A DNA stretch of 64,000 nucleotides from Haloterrigena sp. KLK7 (GTDB lineage Archaea; Halobacteriota; Halobacteria; Halobacteriales; Natrialbaceae): the NCBI RefSeq assembly GCF_037914945.1, contig NZ_CP149787.1:868001-932000 (forward strand), given 5' to 3'. This document shows, piece by piece, positions 49,167-63,219 of the stretch. The stretch's first letter is position 1; every line of letters begins with the position of its first letter. The translations under genes were made by a program, and so were the position numbers. Below the pieces are notes generated by a model. It did no database searches. It worked only from the letters and a program-made list of their open reading frames with translations, and was not told where the DNA came from.

Positions 49167-50219
49167 CTATTCCCAACCGACGTCCTCGCCGCGATCGGTC
49201 TCCCGAAGGATGAACGGGCCGATCGCGAGCGTCCACTTCGCGACGGTGACGACCCGCAGGATGTACGACAGGAAGATCGCGAAGGGCGCCACGCCGACGG
49301 CGAAGGCGAGGCCGACGAACAACAGTCCCTGATCGAACCCCGCGACGATCCCGGCCACGTCACCCACCTCGAAGACGAGGATCATGTACGCCGAGACCGC
49401 CAGCGCCGGTAGGGCGAGGTACGCCAGCGACCGCGAGAGGGTGATGATCTCCCACCGGAAGTACAGCGTCTTGAAGTGTTCCCGGGCGGGGCCGAAGAAG
49501 CCGAGCACCTCGAGCAACTCCTCGAGTTGCTCGTCGATAGCGTCGGGAAGCGCCTCCTCGTGGCGGTTCCGTACCCGGTTGCCGGTGTAGATCTTCCAGG
49601 AGTAGTTGTACTCGAGGGCGGCCTTGACGACCTCGAACCGACCGAACTGTTTGCCCTCGAGGTTGTCGGCGACCCGTTCGGCGTCGGCGGCGATCCCCTC
49701 GGCGTACTCGCGGACGTCCTCGCGAACCGCCTCGTCGAGATCGGGGTCGGACTCGAGCGCGTCGATGAGTTCGTCGGCCCGGTCGCCGGTCGCTTCGACG
49801 AGTCCGCGGAGGAAGGCGGAGGGCTCGGGGGGGCTGGTAGTCCGGTCGACGGCGTCTTCGGTATCCCGGCGGAACTCCATCGCACCGGCCATTCGCTCGC
49901 GCTGATCGGCGACGGGGCCGAGTTCCTCGGCGAGGACGAACTGGTTGAACGTCAACACGAGCGTGACGCCCATGATAATCCCGATGATGGTCGGAGTGAA
50001 CGTCGAGGCGATCGGCGCGGGATCGAACAGCTTCGAGATGGAGCCGGGGCCGAACGTGCCGAGAACGACGAGGATGGTGTAGGAAACGGCGAGCATCACG
50101 CCGGCGACGAGAACGCGATTCCCCTCGACCAGAAACCACAGCATCGGTCGACCGCCGCGAACGCGGTCGACCATCGTGTTCGACGTCTCCTCGCTCGCGC
50201 TCTCGGCGGACTCGCTCAT
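49167..50219 (-). CDS. Four-helix membrane protein, paralogue family member 2
   Basis: 350 aa, same family: FNQFVLAEELGPVADQRERM after helix 2, KQFGRFEVVKAALEYNYSWKIY in the middle, PAREHFKTLYFRWEIITLSR before helix 3, and YILRVVTVAKWTLAIGPFILRET at the end. Unlike the others it lies on the minus strand, starting 147 bp from member 3 (divergent). The conserved FILRET end of members 2-4 suggests a shared binding surface near the membrane. Function unknown. Confidence 0.85.
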   Translation of the reverse strand: MSESAESASEETSNTMVDRVRGGRPMLWFLVEGNRVLVAGVMLAVSYTILVVLGTFGPGSISKLFDPAPIASTFTPTIIGIIMGVTLVLTFNQFVLAEELGPVADQRERMAGAMEFRRDTEDAVDRTTSPPEPSAFLRGLVEATGDRADELIDALESDPDLDEAVREDVREYAEGIAADAERVADNLEGKQFGRFEVVKAALEYNYSWKIYTGNRVRNRHEEALPDAIDEQLEELLEVLGFFGPAREHFKTLYFRWEIITLSRSLAYLALPALAVSAYMILVFEVGDVAGIVAGFDQGLLFVGLAFAVGVAPFAIFLSYILRVVTVAKWTLAIGPFILRETDRGEDVGWE

Positions 50220-50366
50220 GGAATCGGTCGTACCATGGCCCCGCCTACAAGCCTTTGGCCGTCAACGGTAGTTTCGGTGGTGGGAACGAGCGACAGCCGT
50301 CGACGTCGGGGTTGCTTTCGCCCGGATGACTCTTTTACCCGCCGCCGTGGTCACTTCGGGCAGGCA

Positions 50367-51395
50367 ATGAGCGACTCGGACTCGAGCGGCGTGTTGGGAC
50401 AGCGGGCCGGCGTCGGCGGCCCGCGGTTGTGGGTGTTGCTCCGGCTGAACCGCTGGCTCTTCACGGCGGCCGTGCTGGTGATCGTGTTCGCCGTGCTGGT
50501 CGGCGCCAGTCTGTTCGGGCTCGCACCCCACCGGGTACTCGTCGAAACACACAACGCGACCTTCTGGATCTTCTCGGGGTTCATCGGGGCGATCATCACG
50601 GGGACGTCGATCGTCGTCACGATCAACCAGCTCGTGCTCTCCCAGGAACTCGGCGCGGTCGGCGATCAGCGCGAGCGCATGCAGGACGCGATGGACTTCC
50701 GCAAGGACATCGAGGACTCGCTGGAGTACGAGGACGTGACGCCGCCCGAACCCGCGGCGTTCCTCTACGAGCTCGTCGACGGCGTCGAGGAGGAAGCGCA
50801 GCAACTCGAGGAGACAGTGGCGGACGACCACGGCGACGAGATTCAGGAGAAGGTCTCCGGCTACGTCGACGACGCGGTCGAGAACGCACAGGTCGTCAAG
50901 GACGACCTCGAGGACGCTCAGTTCGGCACGTTCGACGTGATCTGGAACGCGCTGAACTTCAACTACTCGCGGAAGATTTACGACGCGCGCAAGATCCGCG
51001 CGGACCACAGCGACGACCTGTCGGACGAGGCCGACGACGAGCTCGACGAGATGATCCAGATCCTGAAGTTCTTCGGCCCGGCCCGCGAGCACTTCAAGAC
51101 GCTGTACTTCCAGTGGGAGTTGATCAACCTCTCGCGGGCGCTGCTGTACGTCTCGGTCCCCGCGCTCACGGCGATGGGACTGCTGATGATGTATATCGAC
51201 GGTACTGCGCTCCTGGGAACGTTCCTGGGGATCGACAACCTCGTCTGGCTGACCAGCGCGGGGTTCGTGATCGGTATCTCCCCGTTCGTCGTCTTCATCG
51301 TCTACATCCTGCGGATCGCCACCGTCGCGAAGCGAACCCTCGCGATGGGACCGTTCATCCTGCGGGAGACCAAGCGGGACGAGGATCTGGGCTGA
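50367..51395 (+). CDS. Four-helix membrane protein, paralogue family member 3
   Basis: 342 aa. Same layout and motifs: INQLVLSQELGAVGDQRERM, QFGTFDVIWNALNFNYSRKIY, PAREHFKTLYFQWELINLSR and YILRIATVAKRTLAMGPFILRET. Closest to member 4. Start ATG at 50367; the 147-bp gap to member 2 holds divergent promoters (CTCTTTTAC at about 50330). No known domain recognised. Confidence 0.85.
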   Translation: MSDSDSSGVLGQRAGVGGPRLWVLLRLNRWLFTAAVLVIVFAVLVGASLFGLAPHRVLVETHNATFWIFSGFIGAIITGTSIVVTINQLVLSQELGAVGDQRERMQDAMDFRKDIEDSLEYEDVTPPEPAAFLYELVDGVEEEAQQLEETVADDHGDEIQEKVSGYVDDAVENAQVVKDDLEDAQFGTFDVIWNALNFNYSRKIYDARKIRADHSDDLSDEADDELDEMIQILKFFGPAREHFKTLYFQWELINLSRALLYVSVPALTAMGLLMMYIDGTALLGTFLGIDNLVWLTSAGFVIGISPFVVFIVYILRIATVAKRTLAMGPFILRETKRDEDLG

Positions 51396-51463
51396 GTCGC
51401 GTCGCCGACTGCGATCCTGCCGTAGCTATTTCCCGCCCATCGTGGTACTCTCGCGCTCGAGCG

Positions 51464-52501
51464 ATGAGCGACGACGGCTCCCAGCCCAGCGACACGATGG
51501 CCGAGCGCAGCGAGTCTCCGACGCTGAAGCATACCCTCCTGTTGAACGCGAACCGGTGGTTGATCACCGCGGGACTCATGCTGTTCGTCTTCGTCGGACT
51601 GCTCGTCGCCGCCCGGCTCAGCCCCGTCTCGCTCCAGGCGGTCGTCGGCGCGCGGGACCCGATCGAGACCCTCTTTCAGGCCCTCGTGACCGCGCTGATC
51701 ACCGGCGTCACGCTCGTCATCACCATCAACTCGCTGGTGCTCTCGCAGGAGCTCGGCGCCGTCGAGGATCAGCGCGAGCGGTTCTCCGGGGCGATGGATT
51801 TCAGGGAAGACGTCGAGTCGTCGATCGACGCGCCGATCAGTCCGCCGGAACCGTCGTCGTTCTTTCAGGCGATCATCGCGGCCTCCGAGGACCGGGCGAC
51901 CGACTTCCGCGAGGCCGTCTCGGAGAGCCAGGACGAGGAACTCAGAGAGCGCGTCGACGACTTCGTCGACAACGTCACGACCCACGCCGACTCGATCCGC
52001 GAGGACCTCGAGGACGCGGACTTCGGGACGTACGAGGTGATCAAGGCGGCGTTGGACTACAACTACTCCTGGAAGATCTTCCGGCTCCGCCGGATCCGAA
52101 ACGTCCACGCGGACTCGTTCACCGACGAGGCCCACGACGCCTACGACGACTTGCTCGAGTCGCTGAAACTGTTCGGCCTCGCCCGCGAGCACTTCAAGAC
52201 GCTGTACTTCCAGTGGGAACTGATCAACCTCTCGCGAGCGATGATGTACGCCGCCGTTCCCGCGCTGGTGGTCACGATCTCGATGATCCTCTTTTTCGAT
52301 CCGAGCGCCGTGAGGGGGGCCGCCCTCGGTATCGACGCCGTCGTCTGGGCCGTCGCGGCGGCCGCGACCGTCGCCGTCGCCCCGTTCCTCCTGCTGATCG
52401 CGTTCATCCTGCGGATCGCGACGATAGCCAAGCGAACGCTGGCGATCGGCCCATTCATCCTGCGGGACTCGAGTCGCGGCGAGGAGATCGACTGGGAGTG
52501 A
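51464..52501 (+). CDS. Four-helix membrane protein, paralogue family member 4
   Basis: 345 aa, the same family: INSLVLSQELGAVEDQRERF, DFGTYEVIKAALDYNYSWKIF, AREHFKTLYFQWELINLSR and FILRIATIAKRTLAIGPFILRDS. It follows member 3 with a 68-bp gap and its own likely promoter, so both are probably expressed but not necessarily together. Function unknown. Confidence 0.85.
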   Translation: MSDDGSQPSDTMAERSESPTLKHTLLLNANRWLITAGLMLFVFVGLLVAARLSPVSLQAVVGARDPIETLFQALVTALITGVTLVITINSLVLSQELGAVEDQRERFSGAMDFREDVESSIDAPISPPEPSSFFQAIIAASEDRATDFREAVSESQDEELRERVDDFVDNVTTHADSIREDLEDADFGTYEVIKAALDYNYSWKIFRLRRIRNVHADSFTDEAHDAYDDLLESLKLFGLAREHFKTLYFQWELINLSRAMMYAAVPALVVTISMILFFDPSAVRGAALGIDAVVWAVAAAATVAVAPFLLLIAFILRIATIAKRTLAIGPFILRDSSRGEEIDWE

Positions 52502-53239: not shown

Positions 53240-53388
53240 GCGTGGTCGTTCACGCGAGAAGCGTAAATCGATGAGGGAACCGGCACGGGAGTGGGGTGGC
53301 TCGCTGCGATTCGCGTTCGTGGTTCCCGTTCCGTTCGCGCTCGAAGACGCTCGGGGTCGGTTTTCGCTCGAGACAGTCGATCCGGTAT

Positions 53389-53603
53389 GCGGTGGCGCGC
53401 GCTGTCGACCGTCCGAGCGGCGCGAGGTGCGAACGGAGTGAGCACCTCGGAAAGCGAACGTGAACGGAGTGAACCGTGAGCGACAGCGAGGACGGGCGTC
53501 GAACTCGTGCGAGGGACGAGTGAGCGAGCCTGCGAGGGACGAGTGAGCGAGCCTGCGAGCGAACGAATCGGTCGGGGAGGGTGTGGAAATCCCTGTTGCC
53601 ACG
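53389..53603 (+). repeat. Dispersed intergenic repeat, copy A
   Basis: Begins GCGGTGGCGCGCGCTGTC and ends AATCGGTCGGGGAGGGTGTG followed by AAATCCCTGTTGCC. It includes a 23-bp direct duplication (TGCGAGGGACGAGTGAGCGA...) and several GAACGGAGTGA words. Both end modules recur at 57625-57935 in the same order and at 53683-53806 inverted. Confidence 0.7.
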
Positions 53604-53682
53604 CGAGCAGCGCACTTCCGTTCATTTGGGTTTTTGAATGGGCTTGTGGGAGAGATAGTGGTGAAAACAACGTCCTGCTATC

Positions 53683-53806
53683 GTGGCAACGGGGAATCGC
53701 CACGGCCTCCCCAGCCGATTCGCTCCCTCCGGTCACTCATCCCTCGCACGGTATTATCGATCGGCCCTCACTGCGTTCGGACACGATCGACAGCGCGCGC
53801 CATCGC
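53683..53806 (-). repeat. Dispersed intergenic repeat, copy B (inverted)
   Basis: Read on the minus strand it has the same two ends: GCGATGGCGCGCGCTGTC at one side and GAATCGGCTGGGGAGGCCGT with GGCGATTCCCCGTTGCCACG at the other. It is shorter than A and C, lacking much of the middle. Opposite orientation to copy A, 80 bp away. Confidence 0.7.
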
Positions 53807-53919
53807 AACGGCGATCGGAGCATCTCGAGCGAGAGATAGACTGCTTGCACCGCGCGACACGTAGCGATAATTCGACGACGGTTAGGGGCCCGAGGACTAA
53901 TTTCGCCCGTGAGTGCCGA

Positions 53920-54399
53920 GTGATCCTCGTCGTCTGTGGGCCGCCGGGCGCCGGTAAGACCACCATCGCGACGGCAGTCCGTAACCGCCTCGAGGCCCGC
54001 GGCGAACCTGTCCCCGTCCTGCTCCACCACTCCGACGACTTCTCGAGTCGCACCTACGAGCAGTTGTTCGAGCGAGCCCGCGACGACCCCGTCGAGACGC
54101 TCACGGTCGTCGACGGGACCTTCTACGAGCGCGAGTGGCAGACGCAGTTTCGGACCCTCGGCTTCCGCGAGGCGATCCGCTTCGTTTTCGTCACCGCGAG
54201 CCTCGAGACCTGCCTCGAGCGGAATCGAACGCGCGCGGATCCGATCGAGGAGCAGGGCGTCCACGTGATCTACCGGGAGTTCGACGCGCCCGAGGACGCT
54301 CTCGAGCTCGATACCGACGCGGTGGACGTCGAGAGCGCCGTCGACCGGATCGAGCGCGCGCTCGAGGCGTGGAACTGGATCGCAGAGTCGACGACGTGA
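53920..54399 (+). CDS. P-loop kinase (AAA_33 / KTI12-PSTK-like)
   Basis: 159 aa. Walker A GPPGAGKTT (residues 6-14) directly after the GTG start; LLHHSDDF and VVDGTFYEREW give the DxF/D-type substrate loops; ERNRTRAD the lid. Related to adenylylsulfate, shikimate and seryl-tRNA(Sec) kinases; a tRNA- or small-molecule-kinase function is possible. The upstream extension is repeat DNA, so the GTG at 53920 is the likely start. Confidence 0.8.
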   Translation: MILVVCGPPGAGKTTIATAVRNRLEARGEPVPVLLHHSDDFSSRTYEQLFERARDDPVETLTVVDGTFYEREWQTQFRTLGFREAIRFVFVTASLETCLERNRTRADPIEEQGVHVIYREFDAPEDALELDTDAVDVESAVDRIERALEAWNWIAESTT

Positions 54400-54488
54400 C
54401 CGGCATCGCCGCGCGCGGAGCCGATCGGACTCGAGTCGGCGACTAACCCGGTGAATCGAAATACGCTATACGCAATCGGTGGCGAGCG

Positions 54489-55400
54489 CTACAGCCCCGG
54501 CACCAGCGCCGCCAGGTCCTCCGGTCGCCGCTCCGGGACGAGTTCGTCGGGCAGCACGTCCCAGTCGAGTTCGTCGGACCCGGGTTCGGCGTCGGTCTCG
54601 AAGCCGGCCTCCGCGGCGGGTTCCCGATCGCGGTTCTCCGCCGGCGGCGCGTCGTGCGCGTAGACGCTCTCGGGGTGGTCGACCGCCCAGACGTGGAGCA
54701 TACAGGGCGTCCGACAGGGGAGGTCGATGTCTCCGTCGGCGAAGTCGCGCTCGTAGGCCTGCTGGTAGTACCACCACGCGAACCGGCCGGGGAGGCCGGA
54801 GTGATAGTGCCACGGGGAGCAGGGGGACTCCGGTTCCGCGGTGGCGCCGATGGGGGCGTCGTCCGCCGTCTCGCCGCTCGCATCGCCGCCGTAGACCGCC
54901 GGCGGCTCGATCCGCTCGCCGTTCCGCGTCGCGACGAACATCACGCCGATCGACCGCCAGGACTCGTCGTCGACCAGTACCGACTCGGGTCGTTCGGGGT
55001 CGAGCACCGCGTCGTCCCCGACGTACTCCGGATTGATCCAGTGGGAGTAACTGTCGTCCTCCCGATCGAGCGTGTCGAAGTACGGCTGGTACCCCTCGTC
55101 GATCAGCGCGCCCACGTCGGAGTAGCGCTCCTCGAGGGCCGTCTGCACCCCCGATCGGAGTTCGGTCGTCGCCGGATGGTCGTCCGCACAGCCCTCCATC
55201 CCGTTCTCGACGCAGTGGCCCATGTTCGGCTCGAGGGTCGCGTCGGGACAGCGGTCGTCGAACCACGGCGTCGTCCCGGTGGCGTCGCTCCCGTTCGCTT
55301 CCGCCGATCCGACACCGACTGCAGAAAATACGGCCGTCCCCGCCGACGCTCGCAAGAGCGTTCGCCGAGAGACGGTCACGTCATCGGTACCGTCGTGCAT
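54489..55400 (-). CDS. Secreted Tat-signal protein of unknown function
   Basis: 303 aa. SRRTLLRASAGTAVFSAVG is a Tat signal. The mature part holds two Cys pairs (DRCPDATLEPNMGHCVENG and GCADD) and a conserved-looking HWINPEYVGDDAVLDPERPES plus SPWHYHSGLPGRFAWWYY, followed by LPCRTPCMLHVW. Four or more cysteines suggest disulfides outside the cell. No family recognised; His/Trp-rich blocks hint at metal or haem binding, not proven. GGTTTAC about 28 nt upstream. Confidence 0.75.
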   Translation of the reverse strand: MHDGTDDVTVSRRTLLRASAGTAVFSAVGVGSAEANGSDATGTTPWFDDRCPDATLEPNMGHCVENGMEGCADDHPATTELRSGVQTALEERYSDVGALIDEGYQPYFDTLDREDDSYSHWINPEYVGDDAVLDPERPESVLVDDESWRSIGVMFVATRNGERIEPPAVYGGDASGETADDAPIGATAEPESPCSPWHYHSGLPGRFAWWYYQQAYERDFADGDIDLPCRTPCMLHVWAVDHPESVYAHDAPPAENRDREPAAEAGFETDAEPGSDELDWDVLPDELVPERRPEDLAALVPGL

Positions 55401-55492
55401 ACCAGCAGTTCTCCACCGACGACCGTTGTAAACCCCCGTTGCCGACCGGAGTGACAGTCCGACCGCGTGATCCGTTTCGATGAGTGATGAGA

Positions 55493-56530
55493 CTACTCGC
55501 GGACCGCGCCCGTCCCCGACCGCTCGAGTCCCGCCAGATCGATCCGACCGCCGGGCATCGGGACGCCGTCGTAGGGATCGTCGGCGAGCAACAGCGAGCC
55601 GTCCAGGTCGGCGTAGTCCAGCAGCGGCGCGAGGTGACAGGCCGCGGCGATCGAGGCGTTGGACTCGGTCATACAACCGCACATCACCTCGAGGCCGTGG
55701 GCGCGGGCGGCGTGGATCATCCGCTTCGCCTCGCGGAGGCCGCCGCACTTCATGAGTTTCAGGTTCGCGATATCACAGCGGTCCGCGACCTGCGGAATAT
55801 CCGCGAGCGTCACGCAGGACTCGTCGGCGGCGATCGGCAGCGGCGAGCGCTCGTAGACGTATCGCAGTCCCTCGGGGTCCTCGGCGGGGACGGGCTGTTC
55901 GACGAACGCGAGGTCGTAGTCCGCGAGGCGCTCGATCTTGCGGACGGCCTCCTTCGGCGCCCAGGCCTCGTTGGCGTCGACGAACAGCCGAACGTCGGGT
56001 GCGACCGCCCGAATCGCCTCGACGATCTCGAGGTCCCCATCCGTCCCCAGTTTGACCTTTAACGTGCCGTGGCCGCGCTCGAGGGCGGTCTCGGTCTTCT
56101 CGCGCATCGTCTCCGTGTCGTCGAGACCGATCGTGTAGGAGGTCTCGAGGGTCTCCGCCGGATCGAGCCCCCAGTACCGGTAGAGCGGGACGTCGAGTCG
56201 CGTGGCGACCAGATCGTGGCAGGCGATGCTGACCGCGGCGCGAGCCGCCGGGTTCCGCCGGACGGTCTCGCGCATGCGACGCTCGATGCGCTCGAGTCGG
56301 TGGGGATCGCCCACGTCCTCGACGACCGCGAGCAAGTCGGGGAGGACGGCCGTCACCGTCTCGACGGTCTCGCCGTAGTGGGCCGCGGGCGCGGCGCCGC
56401 CGACGCCGACGGCGTCGTCGTCTTCAATGCGGACCGTGACGACCGCTCGCTCGGTCGTCGTCCCCCGGGCGATCCCGAACGGGTACTCGAGGGGCAGCGC
56501 GTGGCGTTCGAAGGAGGTCTCGAGCGCCAT
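55493..56530 (-). CDS. dgcA: Enolase-superfamily dipeptide epimerase / N-acetyl-D-glutamate racemase-like (DgcA-like)
   Basis: 345 aa muconate-lactonising subgroup. Catalytic KVK (K158, K160), metal ligands D185 (VDANE), E211 (EQP) and D236 (ADES), opposite base K261 in MKCGG, and DLDGSLLL as the capping acidic loop. Classically annotated as L-Ala-D/L-Glu epimerase. Next to a DUF1611/DgcN gene, four bases away, it fits the D-glutamate route in which DgcN acetylates D-Glu and DgcA racemises the product. That assignment is from gene pairing. Confidence 0.82.
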   Translation of the reverse strand: MALETSFERHALPLEYPFGIARGTTTERAVVTVRIEDDDAVGVGGAAPAAHYGETVETVTAVLPDLLAVVEDVGDPHRLERIERRMRETVRRNPAARAAVSIACHDLVATRLDVPLYRYWGLDPAETLETSYTIGLDDTETMREKTETALERGHGTLKVKLGTDGDLEIVEAIRAVAPDVRLFVDANEAWAPKEAVRKIERLADYDLAFVEQPVPAEDPEGLRYVYERSPLPIAADESCVTLADIPQVADRCDIANLKLMKCGGLREAKRMIHAARAHGLEVMCGCMTESNASIAAACHLAPLLDYADLDGSLLLADDPYDGVPMPGGRIDLAGLERSGTGAVRE

Positions 56531-56533
56531 GGT

Positions 56534-57556
56534 TCACTCGACGATGGCCTCGAGGACCGCGTCGGCCCCGAAGCGGAGCACGTCCGTCGCGGGGGCGTCG
56601 ATCTCGGTCCCGTACGCGTCGACCGCCTCGCGCGCGTCGGCGTCGGTCTCGAGGCCGCTGGTGTTCAACGCGCCCGCGACGATTTCGCCGCCCGAAACGG
56701 GCGCGGACAGCGACTCGTAGAGGTCGACGTAGGTCTGCAGGTCGGGGAGCGAGAACGACTCGTAGCCGTGGATCGCCTCCTGTCCGGCGTTGTGACAGAG
56801 GACGAGTTCGTCCGGCATCGACCCGTGGAGGATCCCGCAGGTGACCGCCGAGTACGCCGGGTGGACGATGCTGCCCTGGCCCTCGACGAAGAGGTAGTCG
56901 TGCTCGTTCCCCTTCTCGAGGACCATCTCCTCGACCGCGCCCGCGGTGAAGTCGCTGACGACGCGGTCGATCGGGTTCCCCCAGCCCTCGATCATGATCC
57001 CCGTCTGGCCGGTGGGGATCACGGCGGCGTCGTGGCCGGCCTCGCGGGCCGCCCGCGCCAGTTCCATCGTGGTCGTCATCTTGCCGACGCCACAGTCGGT
57101 GCCGACGGTGAGGACGACCTCGGCGTCGACCTCGCCGGCGACGCCCTCGGCGACGGTCAGGTCTTCGGGCGGCTCGCGGACGTCCCGCAGCTCGCAGCCG
57201 TTTTCGGCCGCGAGACGGGCGAATTCCTCGTCCTCGGCGAGGAAGTAGTGCAGCCCCGAAATGACGTCGCAGCCGTACTCGAGGGCCGTTCGCACGTCAT
57301 CGCGCCAGCTCTCGTCGAACTCGCCGCCGATCGGAGAGATGCCGATCAGCAGGGCGTCGACGGCGTCGGCCTCGAGGTCGGCCATCCCCTCGACGATCGG
57401 CGCGTCCTGGACGTCCGGGACGACGTCGTTCACGCGACGGCCGGCCGACTCGCGATCGAGGACGGCCGCGGCCTCGTAGTCGGCGTACCGCAGGACACCC
57501 AGCGCGGTCTTGGCTCGGTCGGGAAACTTCTCGTGGGCGAGGATCGCGACGCGCAT
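56534..57556 (-). CDS. dgcN: DUF1611 / DgcN-like protein (probable D-glutamate N-acetyltransferase)
   Basis: 340 aa. N-terminal Rossmann-like domain (LLIGISPIGGEF) and C-terminal P-loop domain with GTDCGVGKMTT (about 152-162), VIPTGQTGIMIEGWG and VEGQGSIVHPAYS. This is the DUF1611 layout; a bacterial member, DgcN, has been described as N-acetylating D-glutamate. Its stop is three bases before the DgcA-like start, so the pair is one operon. Function in archaea is inferred. Confidence 0.78.
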   Translation of the reverse strand: MRVAILAHEKFPDRAKTALGVLRYADYEAAAVLDRESAGRRVNDVVPDVQDAPIVEGMADLEADAVDALLIGISPIGGEFDESWRDDVRTALEYGCDVISGLHYFLAEDEEFARLAAENGCELRDVREPPEDLTVAEGVAGEVDAEVVLTVGTDCGVGKMTTTMELARAAREAGHDAAVIPTGQTGIMIEGWGNPIDRVVSDFTAGAVEEMVLEKGNEHDYLFVEGQGSIVHPAYSAVTCGILHGSMPDELVLCHNAGQEAIHGYESFSLPDLQTYVDLYESLSAPVSGGEIVAGALNTSGLETDADAREAVDAYGTEIDAPATDVLRFGADAVLEAIVE

Positions 57557-58115
57557 ACCGGATCATCGCCGAGGGTGCACTTAAACGGTCGATATCGCGA
57601 TCCGAGTGCGACCGATCGAACGACGTGCGGTGGCGCGCGCTGTCTGCGAGGCGCGACCGAAGGGAGCGCCTCGAAACGCGAATCGCGCGGGACCGACGGT
57701 CCCGCGAACCATACGAACGGGCGCGGAGCGCCCGTGAGTAGACGGGGAACGAAGTGATCCGTGAGCGAGGACGACCGAACGACAGTGAGGTCGGCCGACG
57801 ACACCGTGCGAGGTCGTCGCGAGCGTAGTGAGTGACGGCTTGGAAGACGCGAAGCGTCTTCCGTTGGATGAGTGAGTGAGCGGAGCGAACGAGCGAATCG
57901 GCTGGGGAGGGAGTGGCGATTCACTGTTGCCAGCACGAGCAGGACGACCCGACCTGCTTCCGCAGAAAGCGGTGAAACGGAGCTCCCACGAGAGTCCCGC
58001 TAGTCGCTACCCCGTCCGCTCGAGCGAGAAAACAACGATCCGCACTCGATCGCGCTCGGGTCGCGTCCTCGAGCGCGGTCGTTCCGGTTAGCGATCCGTT
58101 TTCAGCGATCTATTT
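57557..58115. other. Gene-free region with dispersed repeat copy C
   Basis: About 560 bp. It holds the promoter of the dgcN-like gene at the left, the repeat copy C (57625-57935) in the centre, and about 180 bp of ordinary intergenic sequence to the right. No coding frame stands out. Confidence 0.55.
57625..57935 (+). repeat. Dispersed intergenic repeat, copy C
   Basis: Longest copy, about 310 bp: starts GTGCGGTGGCGCGCGCTGTC, has several GAACGAAGTGA/GAGCGTAGTGAGTGA palindromic words and a GAAGACGCGAAGCGTCTTC hairpin, and ends GAATCGGCTGGGGAGGGAGT then GGCGATTCACTGTTGCCA. Ends match copies A and B closely while the middle differs. Confidence 0.7.
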
Positions 58116-62766: not shown

Positions 62767-62952
62767 GTCGACGGTCGTCGGCGTTCGACTGTCATCGTCG
62801 GACCGGCGGCGTTCGTCTGTTATCGTCGGATGGGCGGCGGATCATCATCGGCGGATCGCCACCGTCGTTCGCCGGCCGAGCGGAGACGAACGTTCTCGAC
62901 TCTCGAGTCGTGGGGCCCTCCCTTATCACGCTGGCCGCGGTAGCAACGACGG

Positions 62953-63150
62953 ATGAGCACCGAGCTGGTCGCGTTCGGTATCAGCGCGCTCGCGCTGGGG
63001 ATCGGGATGCTGGTGGCCGGCCGGCGGCTTTACCCGCGACTCGACGTTCCCGAAGACGCCGAGTCGTCGCTGCAGTCGCTGACCGCGATGATCGCGGGAA
63101 TCTTGCTGCTGACCGGGCTGGGACTCGTTCTGCTCGGACTGTTTACCTGA
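62953..63150 (+). CDS. Small two-helix membrane protein
   Basis: 65 aa. Helices at about 6-22 (AFGISALALGIGMLVAG) and 44-63 (AMIAGILLLTGLGLVLLGLF) with a short acidic connection. No family recognised. It lies 69 bp upstream of gatD on the same strand and may be co-transcribed with it. Confidence 0.65.
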   Translation: MSTELVAFGISALALGIGMLVAGRRLYPRLDVPEDAESSLQSLTAMIAGILLLTGLGLVLLGLFT

Positions 63151-63219
63151 CGAGAACGCGACAACGGGATCGATCCCGGAAAGCGTGCCTTCAAGTCCGC
63201 CGCCGCGCAACGCCCACGC

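Follow-up and report, generated by a model that had tools for sequence, protein, structure and literature searches.

The three intergenic repeats in the window, a stretch of 64,000 nucleotides from Haloterrigena sp. KLK7, belong to a family with about 100 copies in that genome. They are probably (at roughly 58%) copies of a small non-autonomous haloarchaeal mobile element whose folded strand is recognised and mobilised in trans. This reading derives from the dispersal of the copies, the differences in site occupancy, the patchy copy number and the extended flanks shared among Halopiger copies. An initial annotation had described a family of three and proposed either a non-autonomous mobile element or a structural RNA element; its count is thus corrected upward, and its proposal holds broadly, as the copies are dispersed, their occupancy varies between related species and they share a covarying fold. 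The family appears to represent a small mobile element of a kind not yet described, and none of this make-up was found in Rfam 15 or in the searched literature.

The three copies (A, B and C) are borne out at their original places by motif matches and by scores against R1, the covariance model of the repeat family (Table 1). The left motif (LE), GCGGTGGCGCGCGCTGTC, matches A (53389) and C (57627) perfectly and has one mismatch in B (53806, minus strand). For the right motif (RE), GAATCGGCTGGGGAGGG, the perfect match is that in C, whereas B differs at one position and A at two. At up to three mismatches, the left motif has one further, weak match in the window besides those in A, B and C, and none of 100 shuffles gave four matches there. 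The conserved modules, first described as the ends of the element, are two sides of one fold and not true termini. The ‘AT-rich 80 bp’ between A and B does have a GC content of 45-55% (60-base windows over 53580-53699) against ~67% in the chromosomal DNA examined, but it consists in part of the facing tails of the two copies. Similarly, the script gene caller placed no gene in the copies, in agreement with the claim of no open frame, although mechanical ORFs run across them. A search against Rfam found no family in the window; the similarities around A/B and C all stay below threshold and look like chance.

Table 1. Positions of the repeat copies, their internal modules and a variably occupied site in the window
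Feature	Position	Strand	Description and basis
Copy A	53384..53618	+	R1 match of 84.7 bits, E 1.2e-19; LE and RE motifs; P2 arm with an extra M1-type module of two hairpins; P3 strand duplicated
M1-type module in P2 arm of copy A	53423..53482	+	Two hairpins with tandem G.A; sequence reading
23-bp tandem duplication in P3 part of copy A	53508..53559	+	2.3 copies, 100% matches; Tandem Repeats Finder
A-B spacer	53604..53682		Contains both facing tails (of A and of B); sequence reading
Copy B	53667..53811	-	Minimal, module-free; tail-to-tail with A; R1 match of 138.4 bits, E 1.5e-33
Copy C	57622..57950	+	Long form with several modules; R1 matches at 57827-57950 (66.8 bits) and 57622-57715 (18.2 bits, split left half)
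M2 module within copy C	57687..57742	+	Two hairpins; matches the 60-nt M2 query at 89%
M3-type module within copy C	57810..57871	+	Sequence reading and M3 consensus search
Region with the intergenic site near 63 kb	62770..63167		Alignment of six genomes

Both searches proposed in the initial annotation, one with the end modules and one with an RNA covariance model, were run on the whole genome. With the 38-nt right module, 29 matches were found at up to three mismatches, and its reversed control had none. For the 18-nt left module the figures are 125 and 57, and the left motif alone is therefore a poor detector. Within the loci around these matches, left and right modules were paired by script in 43 places, one of which (658 nt) is spurious; the ends do therefore co-occur elsewhere in the genome, the opposite of what had been named as speaking against the family. 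R1 gave 116 matches, representing 105 merged elements, with a coding gene called in only one of these and 104 without. Every one of the 105 is chromosomal, which is unusual for a selfish element and counts against the mobile reading. Copies in this genome are seldom more than 90% identical to one another, and hence give no sign of recent activity here. Across the class, 95 of 242 sampled genomes have family matches and 147 have none at the cut-off used; among 41 relatives copy number is patchy, ranging from 0 to at least 75. Among plasmids, three records have matches, including a 987-kb Natrinema replicon matched in six places, and searches of viral contigs and phages gave no match. A pattern match in Spirulina (L116) had no R1 match and was taken as chance.

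The strand of the copies that reads from LE to RE can fold into a four-way junction made up of an outer stem (P0), P1 with P2 as its cap, P3 and P4; P0 is the pairing of the two conserved ‘ends’, and P3 is rich in tandem G.A. Among 59 copies from named haloarchaea, compensatory change occurs in 25 of 35 pairs, compared with 11-15 when the partners are slid, in an alignment (A4) that had been fitted to the covariance model, which favours such an outcome; a MAFFT alignment of the KLK7 copies alone shows it in 15 of 35. Paired cells amount to 91.8% against 21-48% with slid partners, and double-change cells number 230 against 27-57. Across family pairs G.U (329) far exceeds A.C (26), from which we conclude that one strand is selected. 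Core letters, for example GGGGAGG in P4, are nearly invariant beyond the needs of pairing.

One possible explanation for these patterns is a multi-copy functional non-coding RNA, whereby read-through or dedicated transcripts would form a stable four-way junction that binds protein or acts in trans, with dispersal being incidental. Such an RNA would fit the strong covariation over many haloarchaea, the G.U-rich and A.C-poor pairing, the constrained core and the persistence of sites through the genus, as well as the 19 ortholog pairs, in which double changes keep pairing 14 times and break it three times. In these same pairs, however, single changes break pairs about as often as they keep them (32 versus 36). 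No conserved promoter was found upstream of the elements, their orientation to genes in tandem contexts is random, and the 147 genomes of the class without a match also argue against it. Overall, we consider a functional RNA of this kind rather unlikely.

The variable filling between the conserved modules is not arbitrary cargo but consists of shared, exchangeable hairpin modules that are inserted in defined arms and are nearly confined to the elements. In the DNA examined, the M1 consensus has 16 matches in or beside elements (15 on the element's strand) and one outside. For M2, merged elements contain 20 of the 23 matches, 19 being on the same strand as the element; modules mobile on their own are accordingly not supported. 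Of the M2 matches outside, that at 291234 is 30 bp past a truncated element match, one is a 25-nt match, and that at 3304449 is unexplained.

Gene context is consistent with tolerated insertion, since convergent genes flank 47 of 90 occupied intergenic regions as opposed to 13 convergent pairs among the window's 54 pairs of genes. Close pairs of elements are tail-to-tail in 15 of 15 cases, their spacers appear unrelated on inspection, and 75 of the 105 elements lie outside any close pair. A, B and C each face gene starts; the upstream-leader reading that this suggested is ruled out by the context across the genome, since 74 of the 105 elements turn their LE side toward a 3′ end. In tandem gene contexts, the LE side points toward a 3′ end 18 times and toward a 5′ end 20 times, indicating no orientation preference toward genes. 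A cis-acting transcription terminator or leader could be invoked for the many copies at convergent 3′ ends and for the T/C-rich stretch that follows GCCA by ~15-25 nt, the tail being pyrimidine-rich. The even split in tandem contexts and the position of the window's own A-B pair between divergent genes make this very improbable. The sequence CTCGAG is mildly enriched in element flanks.

Comparison with relatives shows that many sites are old and common across the genus, and that others were gained or lost. The copy C site and its orientation are common to all six genus members examined and the site is occupied in none of 12 genomes from other genera, in eight of which the flanking genes are only 66-148 bp apart. 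Both flanks fell on an element of KLK7 itself for 23 of the 40 top-scoring copies of relatives. Conversely, the site near 63 kb is occupied in G001 and G002, has a remnant in G004, and is empty in KLK7, G003 and G005; some orthologous sites have a pair in one genome and a single element in another. The ortholog is the best-matching own copy at only 5 of 19 orthologous sites, which is compatible as well with gene conversion or with insertion more than once. In young Halopiger copies the conserved sequence extends further, by ~45 bp on the upstream side and ~70 bp on the downstream side, and some copies have tandemly duplicated tails. Shared sites, near-identical flanks and Halopiger copies were examined for exact termini and target duplications; all that could be resolved was one internal deletion in H. 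salina, bounded by 6-bp repeats. Terminal inverted repeats and target duplications, both classical MITE features, were not seen in the Halopiger copies with extended flanks, although either may still be present at the true ends. PATEs, which are too short to encode a transposase, have neither. The search for empty sites in relatives, another proposal of the initial annotation, yielded neither a clean one with intact target nor a target-site duplication, and this counts against the mobile reading together with the predominance of old shared sites and the lack of a mobiliser.

The family resembles PATEs and REPINs, yet it lacks those of their defining features that were tested. The PATEs of Haloquadratum walsbyi carry palindromes near their ends that also occur in IS605-type transposons; like the present family they are haloarchaeal, short, non-coding, palindromic, multi-copy and heterogeneous in sequence, with core deletions between short repeats, which the H. 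salina deletion recalls, and small elements inside (PMC3119063). REPs are 20-40 bp palindromes (PMC3733652). The REPIN/REP/BIME and RAYT (TnpA-REP) systems likewise have about a hundred intergenic copies, inverted doublets, a folded strand and no autonomy (PMC3116915, PMC8266576). The covered parts of the RepRanger and GTAG/CGTC REP papers yielded no haloarchaeal family (PMC12306157, PMC3733652), and in those of the Natrinema J7-2 genome paper the only repeats treated are CRISPRs (PMC3402447).

A true PATE or REPIN, meaning a remnant of an IS200/IS605-type transposon or a doublet of REPs mobilised by a Y1 HUH enzyme, would explain the small size, palindromes, many copies, one-strand fold and inverted close pairs. 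However, an IS605/TnpB parent was sought among the ten TnpB loci of KLK7, the only TnpBs tested, and rejected: none has the LE/RE modules by motif search, and the best E against R1 is 0.13. Y1_Tnp (PF01797) has three matches in KLK7 and none in six other carriers (G001, G002, G003, G029, G031 and G039, each with 12 to at least 75 R1 matches), and three of six genus members, with 63-75 or more copies, thus have no match, so that the co-occurrence known for RAYTs is not seen in these carriers. Near-terminal PATE hairpins would need no joint fold, whereas here a single covarying four-way junction takes in the entire unit; a REP is far simpler than this multi-arm fold of 120-330 bp, and with most elements unpaired and spacers not common to pairs, the doublet does not look like the replicative unit. 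We therefore regard membership in either group as improbable. Additionally, a SINE-like retro-element copied from its own RNA could be suggested from the structured, RNA-like unit, the pyrimidine-rich tail and its tandem duplication in some copies, but RVT_1 (reverse transcriptase) was found in none of the 41 relatives, carriers included, and this already disfavored reading is scarcely credible.

Two further comparisons concern the build of the elements. In BOX/ERIC-type bacterial repeats, the outer parts are conserved and enclose hairpin units that vary in number; their modular build is alike, but the present family differs in sequence and fold, and its modules are inserted at defined arms. 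HEARO/IscB and TnpB omega RNAs are structured RNAs spread within a mobile element, with many copies gene-less. In contrast, no partner nuclease gene was found for this family, nor do the KLK7 TnpB loci match R1.

Returning to the trans-mobilised element, its folded single strand would be recognised by a trans-supplied enzyme for copying and insertion. Copies would then persist by descent, swap modules via recombination between copies and decay through internal deletion. Our leading guess for the enzyme is an HUH/Y1-type protein acting on folded single-stranded DNA, which may since have been lost from some carriers. Judging from sequence, it is also conceivable, albeit at rather low odds, that the family is a haloarchaea-wide mobile RNA, in which a working four-way junction (a protein-binding scaffold or ribozyme) would serve host or element while spreading as DNA and diversifying by module swaps.

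With more than 100 copies per genome and a presence in over a third of sampled haloarchaeal genomes, the family is apparently missing from Rfam and the searched literature. Module swapping at fixed arms and consistent tail-to-tail pairing provide concrete, checkable rules for its behavior. The family is also a direct test of how a small non-coding element spreads in archaea where no reverse transcriptase is detectable and where several of the carriers also show no detectable Y1 transposase.

The initial annotation placed three repeat copies in the window, and a search confirmed that placement for all three (table). The left motif said to be common to them matches A and C perfectly and B with one mismatch; the right motif matches C perfectly, B with one mismatch and A with two. 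For each motif, 0 of 100 shuffles gave as many matches. Across the genome of Haloterrigena sp. KLK7 (G000; 4.64 Mb, five contigs), there are 29 matches to the 38-nt right module, versus 0 with a reversed control. A covariance model of the family (R1), built on the RNAalifold structure of 18 short own copies, returns 116 matches at E <= 1, all on contig 1 (3.84 of 4.64 Mb), with 117-157 bits for the best 30 and the weakest few matches uncertain. Merging neighbouring same-strand matches leaves 105 elements, and the chance of none lying off contig 1 is about 2e-9 if placement is random over the genome.

Coordinates of the copies and associated features (window = G000:C1:868001-932000)
Feature	Window position	Genome position	Strand	Remark
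Copy A	53389		+	
Duplication in copy A	53508-53559			23-bp unit in tandem, 2.3 copies, 100% identity; doubles one P3 strand
Copy B	53806		-	
Copy C	57627	925622	+	left half 91-96% alike with the next two copies
Copy		2197839		
Copy		2200692		
Site of copies in relatives	near 63 kb			
Run of ORFs	49167-52501			by eye resemble paralogous membrane proteins; one ORF scanned, no Pfam match
M2 match		C1:3304449-3304507		90%, outside every R1 element; perhaps a degenerate copy
Copy, duplicated tail unit		1689178	-	
Copy, duplicated tail unit		3561298	+	

The RNA covariance model, proposed in the initial annotation as a check, describes a conserved and covarying fold on the strand running from the left (LE) to the right (RE) module, which is predicted to form a four-way junction. 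P0 pairs what had been described as the two ends of the repeat (GC..UGGC with GCCA..GC), P1 pairs GCGCG with a partner inside GNGCGAG and bears the P2 hairpin, P3 sets GAU-GA-GC-GA opposite GA-GC-GA-AUC with tandem G.A, and P4 pairs GGYUGGGGA with UUCCC. Double compensatory changes occur in 15 of 35 pairs in a MAFFT-based alignment of the 18 own copies, and in 25 of 35 pairs (230 cells, with 91.8% of cells paired) in A4, an alignment of 59 copies drawn from 48 of the at least 120 stretches listed from named genomes; the former result is the less biased, because A4 was fitted to R1 and favours it. None of the pairing and double-change values of A4 was equalled in 500 shuffle trials, and slid structures reach only 21-48% pairing with 27-57 double-changed cells. 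The covariation lies in P0-P3, P4 being mostly conserved with one double-change pair among seven outer pairs. The paired columns of A4 hold 329 G.U versus 26 A.C, a G.U count that comes partly from P4, several positions of which pair as G.U more often than in any other way; this excess argues that the constraint acts on the LE-to-RE strand. Rfam 15 gave no match at threshold.

The extra sequence in longer copies consists of recurring two-hairpin modules. In the element-bearing DNA examined, three typed module consensus strings have 60 matches in or beside elements versus 2 outside, and 41 elements contain at least one typed module. Genome-wide, 20 of 23 matches to module M2 fall within merged elements, 19 of them on the element's strand. 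The left halves common to C and two other copies, together with a much shorter G003 copy at C's orthologous site, indicate that modules are gained, lost and exchanged in place. In stretches L350, L351, L364 and L383 and in two own copies (table), the tail unit that follows GCCA is duplicated in tandem, two or three times.

The family is dispersed well beyond this genome. R1 matches (E <= 0.001) are found in 26 of 41 relatives; each of the six genus members has 63 to at least 75 copies, scoring being capped at 75, and the others have 0-58. Class-wide, under stricter filters than in that search (completeness >=90%, E <= 1e-5) and with at most 12 scored, 95 of 242 genomes in 37 of 74 genera carry it. 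Among the at least 120 named stretches listed, R1 matches 46 of 48 and 70 of 72, the misses including the sole Spirulina stretch. No phage record or viral contig matched, and three plasmid records did. CP031304.1, a 987-kb Natrinema thermotolerans replicon listed as a plasmid, matches copy B in six places, so the family is not confined strictly to main chromosomes.

In Halopiger (G100) there are 64 R1 matches, contig 2 included. Plus-strand matches far outnumber minus-strand ones there, unlike in G000, where 47 of the 105 elements are plus. Several Halopiger copies, which are probably younger, have extended flanks in common, about 45 bp on the upstream side of the core and about 70 bp on the downstream side, and some carry tandemly duplicated tails. 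All 37 matches to a 70-nt query of upstream part plus left core include the core, and thus no longer relative with the outer sequence alone was found. Copies in G000 seem to have a sharp left boundary, at T|GCGG, and on the right the tail tapers off across about 25 nt, probably because the outer parts have decayed.

Occupancy differs between related genomes. The initial annotation had suggested seeking empty sites and target duplications in relatives; relatives' sites lacking a copy were found, but no clean empty site with an intact target, and no matching target duplication is readable in copies with extended flanks. At the C site, upstream of a DUF1611 gene (Pfam), the five same-genus relatives G001-G005 also have an R1 copy in the same orientation. 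The other 12 genomes fetched have none there: by tblastn, the DUF1611 gene is separated from the next homologous gene by only 66-148 bp in eight and by 374 bp in one, and the remaining three gave no match for the next gene. The site near 63 kb holds a copy in G001 and G002, a remnant in G004 and nothing in G000, G003 and G005. At the position of copy A, G002 carries a degenerate relative; no counterpart of copy B was seen in any relative, although the kinase-like gene has a different gene upstream of it in G001, G003 and G004. Among the 40 top-scoring relatives' copies (G005, 20; G004, 17; G003, 3), an own element lies between the two matched flanks for 10, 12 and 1 respectively; 9 have one flank matched and 8 none. 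The own DNA compared was that around own elements, so a failure to match need not mean absence. Orientation is unchanged in 20 of these 23 comparisons. Two exceptions concern one own site, where a single copy is inverted versus G004 and G005; in the third, all that was found of the own copy was its right module, reversed. At several sites one species carries a tail-to-tail pair where another has a single copy, and an H. salina copy has lost 113 bp versus G004 between two GAGGAC hexamers, with flanks 95-97% identical.

At 19 shared sites (of 20 chosen, one own copy not being located by the script), median identity is 0.84 in elements versus 0.75 and 0.65 in 40-bp flanks and 0.62 in random stretches. 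The ortholog is the best-matching own copy at only 5 of the 19, a figure depressed by module-length differences; gene conversion or repeated insertion may have acted at shared sites. In the P1/P2 stems of 19 ortholog pairs with flank identity >=0.7, 14 double changes keep pairing and 3 break it (slid controls, 3-4 versus 4-9), and single changes keep it in 36 cases and break it in 32. The fold is therefore kept in place to some degree, not strictly.

By a script gene caller, 104 of the 105 G000 elements are intergenic and one lies over a called gene; the neighbouring genes of the former are convergent in 56 cases, tandem in 37 and divergent in 11. Convergent regions make up 47 of 90 occupied ones; the corresponding figure for gene pairs of the window is 13 of 54. 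In tandem regions LE points to the 3′ end of a gene in 18 cases, among them the overlapping one, and to the 5′ end in 20; orientation thus follows no rule relative to genes. The A/B pair, with a divergent cupin gene on one side and an AAA_33-type gene on the other (Pfam), is atypical. Every one of the 15 pairs of neighbours less than 300 bp apart in G000 has the tail-to-tail arrangement, which independent orientations would give with a probability of about 1e-9. Such close pairs read from R1 tables at named loci comprise 13 tail-to-tail and 4 head-to-head (L137, L158, L215, L219); L137 and L158 are from Halorussus, in contrast with the tail-to-tail rule in Haloterrigena.

Among elements already described, the PATEs of Haloquadratum (PMC3119063) and bacterial REPINs (PMC3116915, PMC8266576) come closest; those of their defining features that were tested failed in this family for both. 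A literature search covering the main text of mainly open-access papers found no description of the family, and an earlier account under another name is possible. As to a mobiliser, none of the ten TnpB loci of G000 has the family's ends. Retro-copying is unlikely, as RVT_1 was found in none of the 41 relatives. Y1_Tnp has no match in six carriers (G001, G002, G003, G029, G031, G039), so a Y1 enzyme is now dispensable for the persistence of copies. The fold, the dispersal and the differing occupancy are established features of the family; we infer that it would be mobilised in trans, via its folded strand.
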